A stretch of DNA of 64,000 bases from Burkholderiaceae bacterium (lineage in GTDB: Bacteria > Pseudomonadota > Gammaproteobacteria > Burkholderiales > Burkholderiaceae_D), in the NCBI GenBank assembly GCA_019232795.1, contig JAFANH010000107.1, forward strand, positions 1-64,000. The letters are read 5' to 3'. Made by a program: the position numbers and the translations under genes. Of the stretch, positions 1-21,005 are shown piece after piece. Under the pieces are notes generated by a model. The model made no database searches and was not told the DNA's origin. It saw only the letters and a program-made list of their open reading frames with translations. The stretch's first letter is position 1, and every line of letters starts with the position of its first letter.

Positions 1-19
1 ACATATGCTGTTGCGGCAT

Positions 20-87
20 GCTTGCGCACGATTCGCGGGACTGAGTCCGACGTGTGTGCAAGCTTGCACCAATTTCGGCGTGCAAGC
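20..87. promoter_or_regulatory. Cluster of GCTTGCAC half-sites upstream of the first PP2C gene
   Basis: A perfect 14-bp palindrome GTGCAAGCTTGCAC lies at 56-69. A further GTGCAAGC copy is at 80-87 and a near copy (GCTTGCGCAC) at 20-29. The 62-69 and 80-87 arms could also pair as an 8-bp stem. Repeated inverted half-sites just upstream of a gene suggest a protein-binding operator, but no regulator is identified. The rest of 1-178 shows nothing else. Confidence 0.4.
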
Positions 88-178
88 GAGACAGTGGGGC
101 AGTACATGCGCTACGATACAACGGTGCTGGCTTCAGGCGGCAATATCGATCGCGTCTTCTTCTCAAAGGGAGAACGTA

Positions 179-967
179 GTGCTGACAGATGCATTGCGGA
201 TGGTCAGTCTTAGCGATACCGGCATGGTACGCGACCTCAATGAGGATAGTGTGGCCTTGCGCCCGGAATTGGGCGTTGCAGTGCTGGCCGACGGTATGGG
301 AGGTTACAACGCCGGCGAAGTGGCGAGCGGCATGGCCGTGTCCACGATCGCCGACGGTTTGGTGCAAGACTGGAACAGCGAGGCTTTGCTGACTCTTGAC
401 CACAACGCCGCCATACGCCTGTCACAGTCGGTGTTGCAGACGCAGATCAAGGCTGCCAATGCCGCGATCCATGCGGCTGCGCAAAACGATGCGCAATGCG
501 AAGGCATGGGCACGACCTTGGTCGCCTGTCTGTTTTACGACAACTTCCTGACGGTCGGGCATCTCGGCGACTCGCGCCTGTACCGTTTGCGCGGCGAAAT
601 CTTCGAGCAGATCACGCGCGACCATTCTATGCTGCAAGAGCAGATCGACGCCGGCATGATCAGCAAGGAGAATGCCCATCTGTCCAATAATCGCAACCTC
701 ATTACGCGAGCCTTGGGGGTGGTCCCCGAAGAGGAGGCGGAAATGCATAGCTATGAAGTGCGGGCCGATGATTTGTTTCTGATCTGCTCCGACGGCTTGC
801 ACGGCATGATAGACGAGGCGCAAATCGCCGATACCCTGACCATGCTGCGTGCCAACCTGAACATGGCGGCACAACAGCTGGTGCAGGCGGCCAATGACGC
901 CGGAGGAAAAGACAACGTGTCGGTGATCCTGGTAAGGGTAATGAAGAGCTTTGCTGCAATGCGCTGA
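179..967 (+). CDS. PP2C-family Ser/Thr protein phosphatase (first of two)
   Basis: Predicted cytosolic metal-dependent phosphatase of 262 aa that would dephosphorylate Ser/Thr targets of the neighbouring kinase. PP2C motifs run in order: RDLNEDSV near the N-terminus, LADGMGG, GMGTTLVA, HLGDSRLYRLR, CSDGLHGM and GGKDNVSV. All metal-binding Asp/Gly positions look intact, so it should be active. I start it at the GTG at 179 because AAGGGAG sits just upstream and homology begins within a few residues; an upstream in-frame ATG at 5 would add a tail unlike any PP2C. It is followed by the FHA gene after 52 bp, and a paralogue lies at 4830-5627. Confidence 0.9.
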   Translation: MLTDALRMVSLSDTGMVRDLNEDSVALRPELGVAVLADGMGGYNAGEVASGMAVSTIADGLVQDWNSEALLTLDHNAAIRLSQSVLQTQIKAANAAIHAAAQNDAQCEGMGTTLVACLFYDNFLTVGHLGDSRLYRLRGEIFEQITRDHSMLQEQIDAGMISKENAHLSNNRNLITRALGVVPEEEAEMHSYEVRADDLFLICSDGLHGMIDEAQIADTLTMLRANLNMAAQQLVQAANDAGGKDNVSVILVRVMKSFAAMR

Positions 968-1019: not shown

Positions 1020-1727
1020 ATGGCAAAACTGATCTTAAGCTTCGAAAATACGGTGCTCAAGACGATTCCGCTCGATAAGGAGCGTATCACCATAGGCCGT
1101 CGGCCAGACAATGACATCCAGATCGACAACCTGGCGGTTTCCGGTTTGCATGCGGTGATCACGACCATCGTGAATGATTCGGTGATTGAGGATCACCAAT
1201 CGACCAATGGCACCATCGTGAATGGGCAGACGGTGCAAAAACATATGCTGCAGCATAACGATGTCATCGAGCTGGGCAAGCACAAGCTCAGGTTCCTGTC
1301 CGATGCGCCGGCCTACCAGGACTACGCCAAGACTGTCGTTATACGCAAGCCCGGTACTGCAGAAGCCACGGTGCGCGCCGCCGATGTGCCCACGGTGCTG
1401 CCGCCGGCGGCTCCGGCCGCACCCGCGGCGGCGCCTGCCGCTCCAGCTGCCGCGCACGCGCCGGTACGCGAAGCAACCTTGCAAGTCCTGTCCGGCGCAG
1501 CCGTCGGCCGCGTGCTCGAATTGAACAAGAGCCTCACCACCATAGGCAAGGCGGGCGTCCAGGTGGTCGCTTTCACACGCCGACCGGTTGGCTACTTCGT
1601 GGCCCAGGTCGAGGGCGAACAGCCGGCCTTGTTCAACGGCGAACCGCTCGGTGAGCATCCGCGTCAATTGAATGATCAGGATACGGTGGAAATCGCCGGG
1701 ACCAAGATGCGGTTCGTCTACAAGTAG
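1020..1727 (+). CDS. FHA-domain protein
   Basis: 235 aa phosphothreonine-binding adaptor. The N-terminal FHA domain (about residues 18-95) shows the canonical ITIGRRPDNDI, SGLHA and STNGT motifs, so the phosphate-contacting Arg, Ser and Asn are present. An Ala/Pro-rich linker (about 120-155) joins a second, C-terminal FHA-like fold (TTIGKAG onward) that lacks the Ser/His and Asn signatures and is probably a degenerate FHA. It lies between the PP2C and the kinase gene, so it likely docks phosphorylated kinase or substrate. Translation starts at the ATG at 1020. Confidence 0.9.
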   Translation: MAKLILSFENTVLKTIPLDKERITIGRRPDNDIQIDNLAVSGLHAVITTIVNDSVIEDHQSTNGTIVNGQTVQKHMLQHNDVIELGKHKLRFLSDAPAYQDYAKTVVIRKPGTAEATVRAADVPTVLPPAAPAAPAAAPAAPAAAHAPVREATLQVLSGAAVGRVLELNKSLTTIGKAGVQVVAFTRRPVGYFVAQVEGEQPALFNGEPLGEHPRQLNDQDTVEIAGTKMRFVYK

Positions 1728-1792
1728 TGCAGGGGAGGCGGTGCCATATGCGGCAGGGCGCTCGCGGGCCGGCGCTTGGCGCCAATTGATTT

Positions 1793-1875
1793 AGAGGACG
1801 TTTCGAAATGGACATGACGTTGTTGTCGGGAGCGGCCATCCGTCGCCTTGCCCTGCTCATTTTGAAACATCCTCT
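1793..1875. repeat. Palindromic intergenic element A
   Basis: Imperfect 18-bp inverted arms at 1793-1810 and 1858-1875 match at 16 of 18 positions, and both mismatches would be G-U pairs in RNA. The interior contains a GCGGCCATCCG segment and a CCTTGCC segment that recur in element B (4692-4808). It fills most of the gap between the FHA gene and the kinase gene. Any transcript through it should fold into a long hairpin. Confidence 0.7.
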
Positions 1876-1919
1876 TAGTTGATTCATTTATTCGACTCAT
1901 CTGATTTGCGGGAGGCTTC

Positions 1920-4688
1920 ATGGCAACGTCGGGTAAGGAAGGTAAAAAACGCGGCAGCAGTTATTGGAAGGCAGATTGGTTTGCCGGGGTACTGGTGGTG
2001 GTGGCGGTGCTCTTGCTGAACATGTTCAGCGACCTGTTCGGCACACTGGAGCGCCGCTATTACGATTTCGCCAGCACCAGTGCCGGCCGCCAGCCTTTTG
2101 CCGACATCGCCGTCATCGCCATCGACGACCAGAGCATTGCCAACATCGGACGCTGGCCGTGGTCGCGCGACGTGCATGCGAAGATGATCGATCTGCTGGC
2201 TGCGGCACATACCAAGACGATCGCCTACACAGTGTTTTTCTTCGAACCGCAAACCGATCGCGGTCTCGGTTACATCCATAAGATCAAGGACGCCTTGAAT
2301 GCCCCCGACGCGGCTGCCGGCAGTGCGGCGCCAACGCCGCTCAATAGCGCGCAAGCCAGTGCACAAGCCGCCGCGCATGCCGAAATGCAAACCTTGCGCG
2401 ACCAGTTGAACGGCATCATCAGTGAGGCCGAGGTTGGGCTCGATACCGACAGCATGCTGGCAGCAAGCATGAAAAAGGCCGGCAACGTCGTGATACCGTC
2501 GGCGTTTACCCTGGGCGAGCCTTTGGGCAAGCCGGATAGTCCGCTGCCGGCCTTCGCTCTCAAAAGCACTCTCGAGGACCCCAGCAATTTTTCGGTGCCG
2601 GCTCTCAAAGGGCAACAGCCCCTGGAAGCCATCGGCTCCAGTGCCGCCGGCATTGCTCACCTGAATCAGTATTTCGACGTCGACGGCGCGGTCAGGCAAG
2701 AACCCTTGCTGGTGAATTATTACGGCCGCGCGGTACCGTCGATGAGCCTGCTGGTGGCAGCCAAGAGTCTCAATCTCGATGCCGCCGACATACGCCTGAA
2801 TCCCGGCAAGGCGGTGCAGATCGGCAAACTGAAAGTCATGACCGACGAATCGGCCCTGATGCTGCCGCAGTTCTACAAGACTTCGGATGGCAAGCTCGCA
2901 TTTCCGGTCGATTCGTTTTACGACGTCATGACCGGCAAAATCCCCGCCGCCAAGTATGCAAACAAGATCGTCATCATCGGCGCCACCGCCGCCGGAGTCG
3001 GTAGTATTTTCGCCACACCGGCGGGGCCCGGCATGTCGCCGGCTGAACAGATCGCCAATGTCACCTCCAGCATCTTGAGCGAACATTTCATCGTCCAGCC
3101 CGAGTGGGGAAGCTGGGCTGCCCTGGGCGTGATGCTGCTGGTGGCCGCTTACCTGATTGCAGGCCTGCCGCACCTCTCGGCCGGCAAAGCGGCGCTGGCC
3201 ACGCTGGGCTTCTTCCTGGTTCTGCTGGTGGCTGAATTCGGCTTGCTCACCGCTTCGTCAATCTGGCTGAAATTCGTATTTCCGGCCGCGTTGCTGGTGA
3301 TCGGCCATCTGGGCCTGACCACGAAGCGCTTCCTGGTGACCGAGGCTGGCAAGCTCAAGTCCGATGAAGAATCTGCCGAGACCAACCGCATGATGGGCTT
3401 GGCCCTGCAGGGCCAGGGCCAGCTCGACGCGGCGTTCGACCGCTTCCGCCGCGTGCCCTTTACCGAAGCCTTGATGGATAACCTGAACAGCCTTGCGCTC
3501 GATTTCGAGCGCAAGCGCCAATTCAACAAGGCTGAAGCCGTGTACCAGCACATGGCGACCTACGACAAGGACTTCAAGGATCTGCAGACCAAGCTGAGCC
3601 GCGCCAAAAACCTTTCGGAAACCGTGATGCTGGGCGGGGGCGCCACGCATGCAGGCGGCACACTGATCCTGGAAGGCGGCGGCGTGGAAAAGCCCATGCT
3701 GGGCCGTTATCAGGTGGAGAAGGAGTTGGGCAAGGGCGCCATGGGCATTGTCTACCTGGGGCGCGACCCCAAGATAGGCCGCGTGGTGGCGATCAAGACC
3801 ATGGCCTTGAGCCAGGAATTCGAAGGCGGCGAACTCGACGACGCGCGTGCGCGCTTTTTCCGCGAGGCCGAGACCGCAGGACGGCTGCAGCATCAGAATA
3901 TCGTCACCATCTTCGATGCCGGCGAAGAGCACGATCTGGCTTATATCGCGATGGAATTCCTCAAAGGCAAGGATCTGGCAGAACTGGGCAAGCAGCATGG
4001 ATTGCTGCCGGTCGACCGGGTGGTGTCCATCGTGGCACGCGTGGCCGATGCACTCGCTTATGCGCACCGGCAGGGCGTGGTCCATCGCGACATCAAGCCG
4101 GCCAACATCATGTGCGACTTCGAGGCCGATACGGTCAAGGTGACTGACTTCGGCATCGCCCGCATCACGGATTCGAGCAAGACCAAGACCGGCGTCATCC
4201 TGGGCACGCCCAGCTATATGTCGCCGGAGCAGGTGGCTGGCGAAAAGATAGACGGCCGTTCCGATCTGTTTTCGCTCGGTGTGATGCTGTTCCAGATGCT
4301 GACCGGCGAACTGCCGTTCCAGGCCGACTCGATCGCCCGATTGATGTATCAGATTGCCAATCAAGCAGCGCCCAGCATACGGGAACTGCGCCCGGAATTG
4401 CCGGAGTCGCTGGCGGTGATTGTGGTCAAGGCGATGAACAAGGCGGCCGACGAGCGTTATCAGGATGGCGAAAAATTTGCCGCCGATTTGCGGGCCGCCA
4501 TGGCGCAGGCGCAGCAGGTGCCGGCGGCATCTCCACCGGCTGCACCCCCGTCGCAATCTTCTGTGACGGGCAGCATGGCTGCCGAAGATGCCTACGCCAA
4601 GACGACGCGCGTGGATAGTACCAGCGCATTCGAGAAAACTGTGCAAATGCCGACGCCTAACCAATCTTCCGAAGGAGCCGGAAGCTAA
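1920..4688 (+). CDS. CHASE2-domain membrane Ser/Thr protein kinase
   Basis: 922 aa receptor-type Hanks kinase. A transmembrane helix near residues 19-38 is followed by a large extracytoplasmic CHASE2 sensor region, then three hydrophobic helices (about 392-470). A TPR-like helical linker (about 485-560) precedes the kinase domain (about 595-865) with a glycine loop (LGKGAMGIVYLG), VAIKTM lysine, catalytic HRDIKPANIM, DFGIAR and SPEQ motifs, all intact. The Thr/Pro/Ala-rich C-terminal tail holds several TRV/TVQMPT sites that could be autophosphorylated and bound by the FHA protein. Start is the ATG at 1920 preceded by GGGAGG. The substrate and the CHASE2 ligand are unknown. Confidence 0.93.
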   Translation: MATSGKEGKKRGSSYWKADWFAGVLVVVAVLLLNMFSDLFGTLERRYYDFASTSAGRQPFADIAVIAIDDQSIANIGRWPWSRDVHAKMIDLLAAAHTKTIAYTVFFFEPQTDRGLGYIHKIKDALNAPDAAAGSAAPTPLNSAQASAQAAAHAEMQTLRDQLNGIISEAEVGLDTDSMLAASMKKAGNVVIPSAFTLGEPLGKPDSPLPAFALKSTLEDPSNFSVPALKGQQPLEAIGSSAAGIAHLNQYFDVDGAVRQEPLLVNYYGRAVPSMSLLVAAKSLNLDAADIRLNPGKAVQIGKLKVMTDESALMLPQFYKTSDGKLAFPVDSFYDVMTGKIPAAKYANKIVIIGATAAGVGSIFATPAGPGMSPAEQIANVTSSILSEHFIVQPEWGSWAALGVMLLVAAYLIAGLPHLSAGKAALATLGFFLVLLVAEFGLLTASSIWLKFVFPAALLVIGHLGLTTKRFLVTEAGKLKSDEESAETNRMMGLALQGQGQLDAAFDRFRRVPFTEALMDNLNSLALDFERKRQFNKAEAVYQHMATYDKDFKDLQTKLSRAKNLSETVMLGGGATHAGGTLILEGGGVEKPMLGRYQVEKELGKGAMGIVYLGRDPKIGRVVAIKTMALSQEFEGGELDDARARFFREAETAGRLQHQNIVTIFDAGEEHDLAYIAMEFLKGKDLAELGKQHGLLPVDRVVSIVARVADALAYAHRQGVVHRDIKPANIMCDFEADTVKVTDFGIARITDSSKTKTGVILGTPSYMSPEQVAGEKIDGRSDLFSLGVMLFQMLTGELPFQADSIARLMYQIANQAAPSIRELRPELPESLAVIVVKAMNKAADERYQDGEKFAADLRAAMAQAQQVPAASPPAAPPSQSSVTGSMAAEDAYAKTTRVDSTSAFEKTVQMPTPNQSSEGAGS

Positions 4689-4691
4689 CGT

Positions 4692-4808
4692 AGAGGCCGT
4701 TGAAAAATCACCCTGGCGGTGTTCCGCGGGGCGGCCATCCGACCTTGCCGTACTACTCGTACTGTCAGCGTCACGGCGCCTAGCCAGGCTAATTTTGCAA
4801 CAGCCTCT
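4692..4808. repeat. Palindromic intergenic element B
   Basis: A 117-bp imperfect palindrome between the kinase gene and the second PP2C gene. Outer arms 4692-4708 and 4792-4808 pair at 15 of 17 positions. Inside them lie a CCTGGCGGTG arm and a GCCTAGCCAGG arm, and at the centre a GTAC...GTAC inner hairpin. The core is clearly related to element C (5638-5743), whereas the outer arms are unrelated in sequence but still self-complementary. Confidence 0.8.
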
Positions 4809-4829
4809 AAGAAAACTAAATAGATAACA

Positions 4830-5627
4830 ATGAGCGTACAAATCTACGCGGAGACCGATCCAGGTTTGCAGCGCGCCCACAACGAGGACTCCGTTGCCTT
4901 TGATGTCCCCAGCGGTTTGTGTATCCTGGCCGACGGCATGGGAGGGCATAAGGCCGGTGAAGTGGCGAGCGGCATGGCGTCCGCCTTTTTGAAATCCGAG
5001 CTGCGCGAATGGGTCAATCAATCCGGCAGAAGCGCTTCCCGTGCCGAAGTCCGCATGGCCGTGGAACGTGCGATTGCCCAGGCCAATAGCGCCATCTACA
5101 ACATGTCGAAAAGCAGTGCGCGCTATTCCGGCATGGGGACGACACTGGTGACGGGCCTGTTCCATGAAAACGCACTGGTGCTGGCCCATATCGGCGATTC
5201 GCGCTGTTATCGCTTGCGTGGCGAACAGTTGGAACAGCTGACCAAGGATCATTCTGTGCATCAGGAACAGGTCGATGCCGGCCTGCGCGGCGCCGGCCCG
5301 GCGTCGCGCGAGCAAAAGCTGGTGACGCGTGCGCTCGGCGTCGATGAGCGCGCCGAGATCGATGTCGAAACGCTGGAAACTGCGCCCGGCGACATTTACC
5401 TCATGTGCTCCGACGGACTGTCGGACATGGTCGAGAATGGCGCCATCGCCGCCATCCTGCGCAATTCGGGCAATATAGCGCAGAGGGTCAAACATCTGGT
5501 CAATGCCGCCAATGCGGCAGGTGGGCGCGACAATATTTCCGTATTGATTGCCGAGGTCGACGCGCCGCGGGAACCGGGGCTGCTCAATGCAGCGCGTCGC
5601 ATGCTCAGCAGTGTCTGGTCAGGCTGA
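4830..5627 (+). CDS. PP2C-family Ser/Thr protein phosphatase (second of two)
   Basis: 265 aa, close paralogue of the phosphatase at 179-967. Motifs RAHNEDSV, LADGMGGHKAGE, GMGTTLVT, HIGDSRCYRLR, CSDGLSDM and GGRDNISV are all present, so it is predicted active and Mg/Mn-dependent. It follows the kinase gene, separated only by palindromic element B, and probably reverses its phosphorylations. Two PP2C enzymes flanking one kinase is unusual and suggests different substrates or timing. Confidence 0.92.
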   Translation: MSVQIYAETDPGLQRAHNEDSVAFDVPSGLCILADGMGGHKAGEVASGMASAFLKSELREWVNQSGRSASRAEVRMAVERAIAQANSAIYNMSKSSARYSGMGTTLVTGLFHENALVLAHIGDSRCYRLRGEQLEQLTKDHSVHQEQVDAGLRGAGPASREQKLVTRALGVDERAEIDVETLETAPGDIYLMCSDGLSDMVENGAIAAILRNSGNIAQRVKHLVNAANAAGGRDNISVLIAEVDAPREPGLLNAARRMLSSVWSG

Positions 5628-5637
5628 GTTATGATCT

Positions 5638-5743
5638 AAGAAACTCTAACAAAGGGAGCCTGGCGGTGTTGCCGCTCCTTGTCGTACAATTTGTACTGTC
5701 TGCGTCGCGACGCCTAGCCAGTCTCACTTTGTTAGAGTTTCTT
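5638..5743. repeat. Palindromic intergenic element C
   Basis: A 106-bp palindrome between the second PP2C gene and the LysE-family gene. Outer arms match perfectly over 17 bp (5638-5654 and 5727-5743) and continue imperfectly into CTGGCGGTG and CGCCTAGCCAG arms. The centre is a near-perfect GTACAATTTGTAC palindrome. The core aligns with element B, while the outer arms differ in sequence. As RNA it would form a very stable hairpin of about 100 nt. Confidence 0.85.
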
Positions 5744-5775: not shown

Positions 5776-6378
5776 ATGATTTTTGCTTTCCTGAAGGGGC
5801 TGGGCATAGGCGCCAGCCTGATCGTCGCTATCGGCGCGCAAAACGCCTTTGTCTTGAAACAGGGCTTGTTGCGCCAATACGTATTGACCTGCGCACTGAT
5901 CTGCACGGCCTGCGATATGGGCTTGATCTATGCCGGCGTAACCGGCATGGGAGCGCTGATTTCCGCTTCGCCGAATTTGCTGACCGTAGCCAAGTGGGGC
6001 GGCGCAGCCTTCCTGTTTTTCTATGGCGCGCGTTCAGCCCGGGCGGCGCTCAAAGCCGATGGACTGATTGCCGCCGCCGAAGCGGCGCGCAGCCACATGG
6101 CCATCGTGATTTCAGCTTTCAGCTTCAGCCTGCTCAATCCGCATGTTTACCTTGATACCGTGGTCTTGCTCGGCGCCATCGGCGGCCAGCAAGTGGGTAT
6201 GGCGCGCAGCGCCTTCGCAGCCGGCGCCATGACGGCCTCGACCATCTGGTTTTTCGGACTGGCGTACGGGGCCAGGCTGCTGGCACCGCTGTTTGCCAAG
6301 TCGGCTGCATGGCGCATACTCGACGGCTTGATTGCCATTGTGATGTGGGCGATTGCTGCATCCCTGTTGTTAAGCTGA
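5776..6378 (+). CDS. argO: LysE/ArgO-family amino-acid exporter
   Basis: 200 aa inner-membrane protein with about six hydrophobic segments. The N-terminus has the family signature (VAIGAQNAFVLKQGLLR), and an NPHVYLDTVVLLG segment lies in the middle. These are typical of ArgO/LysE exporters of basic amino acids such as arginine or lysine. The length matches the family. It is monocistronic, with element C upstream and a strong terminator directly downstream. The exact substrate cannot be told from sequence, and no LysR-type ArgP regulator is adjacent. Confidence 0.85.
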   Translation: MIFAFLKGLGIGASLIVAIGAQNAFVLKQGLLRQYVLTCALICTACDMGLIYAGVTGMGALISASPNLLTVAKWGGAAFLFFYGARSARAALKADGLIAAAEAARSHMAIVISAFSFSLLNPHVYLDTVVLLGAIGGQQVGMARSAFAAGAMTASTIWFFGLAYGARLLAPLFAKSAAWRILDGLIAIVMWAIAASLLLS

Positions 6379-16100: not shown

Positions 16101-17192
16101 TCAGACGTTGAACAGGAAGTTCAATACGTCGCCGTCCTTGACCACGTATTCCTTGCCTTCGGCGCGCATCTTGCCCGCTTCCTTGGCGCCGTGTTCGCCC
16201 TTGTAGGCGATGAAGTCGTCGAAGGAAATCGTCTGCGCGCGGATGAAGCCGCGTTCGAAGTCGGTGTGGATCACGCCGGCTGCTTGCGGCGCGGTGTCGC
16301 CCTTGTGGATGGTCCAGGCGCGCACTTCCTTGACGCCGGCGGTGAAATAGGTCTGCAGGCCGAGCAGCGTATAGCCGGCGCGGATCAGGCGGTTCAGGCC
16401 CGGTTCTTCCATGCCCATGTCGGCCAGGAAATCGGTCTTGTCGGCGTCGTCAAGGTCGGCGATCTCCGCTTCGATGGCAGCGCAGATGGCGACCACGGGC
16501 GCGTTTTGCGCCTTGGCGTAATCGGTCAGCTGGTCGAGCAGCGGGTTGTTCTCGAAGCCATGGTCGGACACGTTGGCCACATACATGGCCGGCTTGGCCG
16601 TGATCAAGCACAGCGGCTTGATCAAGGCCATTTCTTCGGCATCGAGGCCCAAGGCGCGCACCGGCTCGGCATTGTTCAGGTGAGGCACGATGCGTTCGAG
16701 CAGCGCGACCAGCTTGGCGGCGTCCTTGTCGCCGGAACGGCCTTTCTTGTTTTCGCGGTGGATGGCTTTTTCGACTGCGGCCATGTCGGCCAGCGCCAGT
16801 TCGGTCTGGATCACGGCGATGTCGTCGAGCGGGCTGATGCGGCCGGCTACGTTCACTACGTTCGGGTCTTCGAAGCAGCGCACTACGTTGACGATGGCGT
16901 CGGTTTCGCGGATGTGGGCCAGGAATTGGTTGCCGAGACCTTCACCCTTGGAGGCGCCCGCCACCAGGCCCGCGATGTCGACGAATTCGACCGTGGTCGG
17001 CACGATCTTTTGCGGCTTGACGATCTCGGACAGCGCAGCCAGGCGCGGGTCCGGCACTTCGACGATGCCGACGTTGGGTTCGATGGTGCAGAACGGGTAG
17101 TTCTCGGCGGGAATGCCGGCCTTGGTGAGCGCGTTGAAAAGCGTCGACTTACCGACGTTGGGGAGGCCGACGATGCCGCATTGGAGACTCAT
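16101..17192 (-). CDS. ychF: Redox-regulated ATPase YchF (OLA1 family)
   Basis: 363 aa TRAFAC P-loop protein that binds the ribosome and prefers ATP over [18 protein letters not shown] (Walker A) and [16 protein letters not shown] (switch II) are intact. The G4 position, usually NKxD in GTPases, reads NVSD here (YVANVSD), in keeping with ATP use. A TGS domain lies at the C-terminus ([12 protein letters not shown] onward). Located downstream of pth and the patatin gene on the same strand, the usual pth-ychF neighbourhood. Confidence 0.96.
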
Positions 17193-20928: not shown

Positions 20929-21005
20929 TGGCAGGGGAAGAAGGATTCGAACCTTCGAATGCTGGAATCAAAATCCAGTGCCTTAACCAACTTGGCGATT
21001 CCCCT
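20929..21005 (-). tRNA. tRNA-Gln (anticodon UUG)
   Basis: A 77-nt cloverleaf including encoded CCA (complement of 20929-20931). Anticodon loop is TTTTGAT-like with the TTG anticodon, the T-arm reads GGTTCGAATCC, and the acceptor 5' end AGGGGAA pairs with TTCCCCT. The first pair is A1-U72 with discriminator G73, a weak pair of the kind GlnRS prefers. It sits between ispE and prs on the same strand, the usual place in proteobacteria, and is probably processed from a joint transcript. Confidence 0.95.

Follow-up and report, generated by a model that had tools for sequence, protein, structure and literature searches.

Correia elements (CREE, also called nemis) influence gene expression in Neisseria, and an IHF site belongs to their long form. 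The short form is 104-108 bp (PMC2649163), the strict length classes are 104-108 or 153-157 bp, and a 26-bp Correia repeat, TATAGYGGATTAA..., is located at both ends. The target is duplicated, with TA at the termini (PMC2229807). CREE has been termed unique to Neisseria spp. (PMC5039591). PMC2649163 likewise describes the Correia repeat as only found in Neisseria and gives both the mobilising mechanism and the autonomous partner as undetermined. Three intergenic palindromes, elements A, B, and C, are found in a 64,000-nucleotide stretch of a Burkholderiaceae bacterium (assembly GCA_019232795.1, contig JAFANH010000107.1, positions 1 to 64,000; hereafter the window). They are Correia-type miniature inverted-repeat transposable elements (MITEs) with lineage-specific terminal repeats. 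All three are very probably non-autonomous mobile elements of ~100 bp and relatives by descent of the Correia element of Neisseria.

The elements and their parts are listed below, with scores from R1, a covariance model built from seven copies in the own genome.

1791..1793, left TTA of the 3-bp target duplication of element A (direct reading)
1794..1874, + strand, element A, a shortened Correia-type element of 81 bp that has lost the apical GTAC hairpin; arms GAGGACGTTTC... and ...GAAACATCCTC; R1 35.8 bits, E 1e-5 (whole genome)
1875..1877, right TTA of the 3-bp target duplication of element A (direct reading); the same kind of duplication is found in 19 of 20 copies of relative G075
4693..4807, + strand, element B, a full element of 115 bp; R1 91.3 bits, E 3e-21
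4729..4741, insert GGGCGGCCATCCG in element B
4743..4787, + strand, conserved core of B, CCTTGCCGTAC..GTACTGTCAGCG..GCGCCTAGCCAG
5640..5741, + strand, element C, full-length, 102 bp; arms GAAACTCTAACAAAG/CTTTGTTAGAGTTTC, the palindrome reaching 5638-5743; R1 113.8 bits, E 1.5e-27
5677..5721, + strand, conserved core of C

A first-pass annotation, made from the sequence alone, had described B and C as sharing core segments and A as sharing only parts of B, with outer arms self-complementary within each element and unrelated between elements. Most of this description stands. Direct reading, repeat finding, and R1 all recover the three elements in their gaps, and B and C share a 66-nt core repeat at 77% identity (repeat finding). 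The single-strand folds of A, B, and C reach -33.2, -47.7, and -53.9 kcal/mol (z of -4.07, -3.37, and -7.79). None of 200 dinucleotide shuffles folds as well. The self-complementary outer arms are confirmed in all three. Folding is strong on the reverse strands of B and C too (z of -4.79 and -7.10). The arms of C are indeed unrelated to those of A and B. Those of A and B are related: the two elements are 71% identical over 51 nt, left arm included (repeat finding), and 12 of the first 18 letters are equal by eye. The arms of A also resemble full-length copies elsewhere in the own genome (L017, L018). B is flanked by TA on either side (4691-4692 and 4808-4809), yet the triplets are unequal (GTA/TAA), and C has no target duplication (TAA/TTG). 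No terminator-like or promoter-like site was detected inside A, B, or C by scanning. An Rfam search of the window at the gathering score returned only a tRNA at 20932-21005, and at E<=5 none of the three elements gave a match.

The core of these elements is the Correia/nemis core, and the annotation's statement that no named family matches was wrong. CREE sequences were fetched with terminal-repeat patterns (PMC2649163) that span the ends plus some core letters; Neisseria as their host is presumed from the repeat. The element enclosed between the Correia repeats is 106 bp and carries a core of the same family as A, B, and C. R1 finds CREE with a best score of 39 bits (E 5.6e-8). A second model, R2, was built from 33 diverse elements with Neisseria sequences excluded, and it finds TAGTGGATTAA-ended CREE in two genomes (G139 and G351; E 2.2e-16 and 4.3e-16). 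Local alignment of C with CREE spans 49 columns with a score of 56, where the maximum of 2000 mononucleotide shuffles is 27. B scores 43, against a maximum of 28 in as many shuffles. The characteristic directional core of CREE is thus present in the family by both models and in B and C by direct comparison, with A directly at chance.

CREE and the window elements are similar in size, and the 102 bp of C, 115 bp of B, and 81 bp of A lie near yet outside the strict length classes. They have the common core GTTGCCTCGCCTTGCCGTACTATTTGTACTGTCTGCGGC..CGCCT and are alike in their paired terminal repeats, the lack of a gene, target duplication (in relatives, for the window family), and the lack of a known transposase. 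The Correia repeat itself is not in the window, where the arms read GAGG.../GAAAC.... The core borders of CREE are CCGGTACGG and TCAGGACAA, whereas those of the window are CCTGGCGG and GCCAG. CREE has TA at its termini; in the window A has TTA/TTA, B has TA on both sides, and C has neither. The target triplets in relatives are TTA/TAA or TAC, unlike the TA of CREE. The window family also differs in having hosts outside Neisseria, other inserts and deletions, and double elements.

The own genome is a 2.95-Mb draft that is 86.6% complete. Genome searches scored the best candidates per genome (150 in the own genome with R1, 41 at family, 13 at order, and 21 at class level), so copy numbers are lower bounds. 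R1 gives at least 43 own-genome matches at E<=1 among the best 150 of 483 candidates. With both strands of one palindrome counted as a single place, at least 27 distinct places are found at E<=1e-4, including A, B, and C. The annotation had called for a genome-wide covariance scan and named the return of only three copies as a point against it; the scan shows a dispersed family. A fourth copy was not found in the 64-kb window at E<=0.001. The exact core pattern occurs at seven places in the own genome and at none in 19 other genomes searched with the same pattern. Arm types in the own genome are GAGGCTGTTGCAAAATTA, GAGGATGTTTCAAAATGA, GAAACYCYAACAAAATGC, and the arms of the double elements. 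One copy is longer, at 195 bp, with GAAGCTGCTGAAAAATTA-type ends and an additional internal segment (L293 674-868; G000:C27:11673-11867), and its change in length recalls the long CREE form. Short inserts like GGGCGGCCATCCG are present in window 4729-4741 and in own-genome copies L007, L019, L020, L021, L293, and L425, either 5' or 3' of the apical hairpin.

The family is spread across beta-proteobacteria. Matches to R1 at E<=0.01 are found in 51 of 97 family genomes, own genome included, with up to at least 41 matches per genome. At E<=1e-5, R2 matches 97 of 300 order genomes and 23 of 185 genomes of the class sample, again including the own genome. In named genomes the core pattern returns at least 116 stretches. 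Hosts by record title among the 80 matches listed include Janthinobacterium, Glaciimonas, Undibacterium, Herbaspirillum, Herminiimonas, Ralstonia, Rhodoferax, Vogesella, Chromobacterium, Aquitalea, Crenobacter, Azonexus, Aromatoleum, Uliginosibacterium, Methylophilus, and others. A recognisable core is seen in 21 of 22 high-scoring order-level elements displayed. At class level, three of the eight elements displayed have the core, and five have only GGCGTTGC- and GCGCCTTG-like parts with a different apical hairpin. These five (L342-L344, L346, L347) possibly represent a candidate for a still wider superfamily. Viral contigs hold one stretch with the core pattern, and a plasmid collection queried with element B, one double element, and one relative's element gave no match. 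Janthinobacterium sp. 344 carries four elements in direct tandem at L114 5958-6659, with core starts spaced 228, 228, and 217 bp apart. An element of Janthinobacterium lividum PAMC 25724 (L141) has an internally duplicated apical hairpin.

Evidence for mobility comes mainly from relatives. In G075, 20 copies were fetched of 24 matches; they are 101 bp and near-identical, and 19 of the 20 have equal flanking triplets (TTA in 11, TAA in eight). All seven copies in G065 are flanked by equal triplets, in each case TAC. At locus L249 of G075, TTA-element-TTA lies between convergent genes. The same site is uninterrupted in relatives G578 and G616, where the convergent stops overlap by four bases (TTAG, CTAG), and the element is also absent from G571, where 26 bases separate the stops. 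The L249 search matched 57 of 60 genomes, G075 included; the three named were examined, and several others had the halves apart or one half. An empty site was obtained at one of two loci tried, L249 having been picked because synteny was expected of its convergent genes. The earlier attempt at L252 yielded no junction-spanning match among 29 loci compared. Among the 20 copies of G075, 19 boundaries are no more than 12 nt from a stop codon and one is that close to a start (rough ORFs), with at least one stop boundary at 16 copies and convergent genes around 11. This placement follows from the TTA/TAA target. Compared with MITEs in general, the family has terminal inverted repeats, is dispersed in many copies, and at ~100 bp has no space for a transposase gene. 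Target duplication and empty sites are seen in relatives. The target duplications in relatives, the empty sites, and the conserved core with divergent arms support the annotation's alternative of a mobile element with rebuilt ends.

Some members are double elements, in which two core-bearing hairpins stand head to head around a CCTCCGGG-like linker within a further enclosing repeat (GGGCCTGTTCACATT... or TAGAACTCATTTCATAAATA...), 266-282 bp in all. The own genome has two inverted copies on contig 31 and one each on contigs 99 and 47; G036, G068, and G090 also have them. Three own-genome copies folded alone reach -170.9 to -175.4 kcal/mol, and the predicted fold is a three-way junction. TA is present on both flanks in 10 of 15 GGGCCTG-type double copies displayed. 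The double elements are at the following positions.

L222:7953-8223 and 16357-16627
L223:5275-5546
L224:180-640
L410-L420 and L422-L424

The arms pair in spite of their divergence. Among the 33 diverse elements, mean pairwise identity is 0.75 in the core and 0.46 in the arms. In these elements 88.1% of cells pair, as opposed to 68.9 in shuffles; changes on both sides are seen in 25 of 35 pairs (18.5 in shuffles), and covariation is 0.552 (0.194 in shuffles). None of 500 shuffles is as high. The alignment was made without structure, but its ends come from model matches and its structure is the fold of a single row (L008) plus one consensus pair, which favours pairing. Shifting the partner by one to three columns abolishes the arm signal. 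Unpaired arms at homologous positions had been the annotation's other point against its reading, and here the arms pair.

The annotation had offered selection on RNA structure as one cause of this pairing. In such a reading the hairpins between cistrons would serve to process or stabilise the mRNA, and compensatory mutation would account for the covarying arms. The folds are strong, the covariation exceeds every shuffle, and A, B, and C are all in sense orientation between co-directional genes. Tandem contexts in named loci are also 23 sense to eight antisense (rough ORF calls that placed 87 of 116 elements, of which 17 fall within an ORF and 70 are flanked by a gene on either side). G075 does not confirm this sense bias (three versus five), and the relatives show insertion signatures. 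Selection on single-strand RNA predicts an excess of G.T over A.C mismatches. For this count 144 of 213 elements were used (stem score >=24), 133 with unique arms. G.T and A.C are equally frequent, at 74 and 78 in the 133 and at 81 and 80 in all 144, and RNA selection is thus improbable as the cause of the covariation. Arm matching is more likely a DNA property, in that a single enzyme needs equal ends, one arm is copied onto the other, or both apply. Bidirectional terminators amplified at gene ends are a further possibility, to which a similarly low probability is given. Of the 20 G075 copies, 11 are flanked by convergent genes and 16 abut a stop codon, and 27 of the 70 named-loci copies are convergent. 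Against this, the stop-codon position follows from the target, the empty site shows insertion between overlapping stops, and A, B, and C lie within a co-directional gene row and contain no terminator-like site.

Template switching at replication, described for quasipalindromes in PMC8794818, PMC8604942, and PMC7202029, could produce complementary arms passively, with no transposase reading the ends. In 14 double elements of one genus (found in 14 of 17 loci compared), outer-arm sites 13, 14, and 16 vary between copies and are mirrored in 14 of 14, and L253 has one mirrored change. The same 14 elements differ in one arm only at sites 8, 20, and 22 (the last in six copies), with site 23 mixed, and the 20 young G075 copies have 16 one-sided changes to one mirrored. 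Duplications and copy number are also left unexplained, and template switching as the whole account is rather unlikely. The mirrored and one-sided changes together indicate that matching is kept over longer times and not by rapid conversion. Convergence on the core, with the resemblance to CREE due to chance, is extremely improbable. Strong palindromes can score against any hairpin model, five of the eight class-level matches displayed have another apical hairpin, and A is at chance against CREE. Even so, the 49 aligned core columns of C and the scores of C and B lie far above their shuffle maxima, and two models from different sets both find CREE.

Several observations weigh against common ancestry with CREE and mobility as the explanation of A, B, and C. 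A scores 29 against CREE, equal to its shuffle maximum of 29 (one of 2000 as high), and its assignment to the family rests on R1 and its arms. Equal flanking triplets are found in only two of 23 own-genome copies tested (22 loci plus A; the two are A and L023), those of B and C being unequal. The AGGACTTACGC-type copies of G103, G085, G072, and G071 have no obvious duplication, and their terminal base pairs are variable. Searches by end patterns, 18 nt with <=3 mismatches in the own draft (G000) and G075 and 14 nt with <=1 in G103 and G072, gave no autonomous element that has these ends. These lists, judged by eye for a parent insertion sequence, show no end pair at 0.5-3 kb. One stray end in G075 belongs to a half element, and by eye no element-sized partner accompanies three further ends in G075 or one in the own genome. 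Arm changes in the young families are mostly one-sided (16 to one mirrored in G075, as above, and one to none in G065). Finally, element B is missing at all six other loci where kinase and phosphatase occur together; this carries little weight because only G039 and G003 among their genomes have any R1 match. These six, with kinase and phosphatase adjacent, are among 29 other phosphatase loci compared, and at none of the 29 is there an R1 match nearby at E<=1.

Other known systems are less close. REP/REPIN and CGTC-tagged palindromes (PMC3733652) are also intergenic palindromes that occur in head-to-head pairs. REPs measure 20-40 bp and carry a terminal GTAG or CGTC tag on one side (PMC3733652), whereas the window family is ~100 bp with a long conserved core, target duplication in relatives, and CGTC inside the core. 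REP/RAYT was set aside on length and duplications. ERIC, RUP, QMITE, and other bacterial MITEs (PMC2229807, PMC10969869) are alike by description in being small and non-autonomous, with terminal repeats and hairpin transcripts. Template-switch quasipalindromes (PMC8794818, PMC8604942) have mirrored arm changes, but are not mobile by themselves. Integron attC sites, a candidate in view of the GTTAGGC-like arms of the elements, were set aside by description, given the conserved core, arm symmetry, and dispersed positions.

The three elements of the window separate the genes of a single row, as follows.

1020..1727, + strand, FHA-domain gene, upstream of A (Pfam PF00498, E 4.4e-20)
1920..4688, + strand, CHASE2 - Ser/Thr protein kinase gene, between A and B (Pfam PF05226, PF00069)
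4830..5627, + strand, PP2C phosphatase gene, between B and C (Pfam PF13672)
5776..6378, + strand, LysE-type transporter gene, downstream of C (Pfam PF01810)

Element B lies between the kinase stop codon (4686-4688) and the phosphatase start (4830). Upstream of the FHA gene, window 5-967 holds a second PP2C-type phosphatase gene. Three of the ~27 genome copies are found inside 4 kb (1794-5741), all sense-oriented in one gene row. RNase III cutting of the CREE hairpin in transcripts is stated in PMC2649163 and PMC10969869. By analogy, RNase III may also cut the hairpins of the window family, and the messages of the kinase, the phosphatase, and the transporter might thereby be separated at B and C.

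A conserved directional core (GGCGTTGC..CTTGCCGTAC-loop-GTACTGTCTGCG..GCGCCTTGCC) lies inside a terminal inverted repeat of ~18 bp. The core is common across beta-proteobacteria, and the terminal repeat is lineage-dependent. A DNA transposase, at present a conjecture, would act in trans on both ends. Only copies with matched ends would found new families, because one protein must bind both. The ends may drift or be exchanged between lineages, always as a pair, and template switching within the hairpin at replication may contribute, one arm serving as template for the other. Tentatively, and at well short of even chances, the heritable unit would be the core: one ancient core of ~50 bp that repeatedly acquires new matched terminal repeats by switching transposase, and that also built two-core three-way-junction elements with a third end pair. 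CREE would then be one branch of a modular superfamily across beta-proteobacteria, possibly beyond. No report of the family outside Neisseria was found among the papers listed, and a prior description is possible. The taxonomic reach, the end replacement, and the 266-282-bp double elements are apparently new.

A palindrome can covary strongly without having an RNA function, a point relevant to covariance-based RNA discovery. If Correia elements belong as one branch to a family that spans the class, the enzyme that moves them could be searched for by comparing many genomes, and the core would be the part that needs explanation. The elements are ordinary in kind, being MITEs, yet they are a substantial extension of a named family described as confined to one genus, with an unexplained replacement of its ends.

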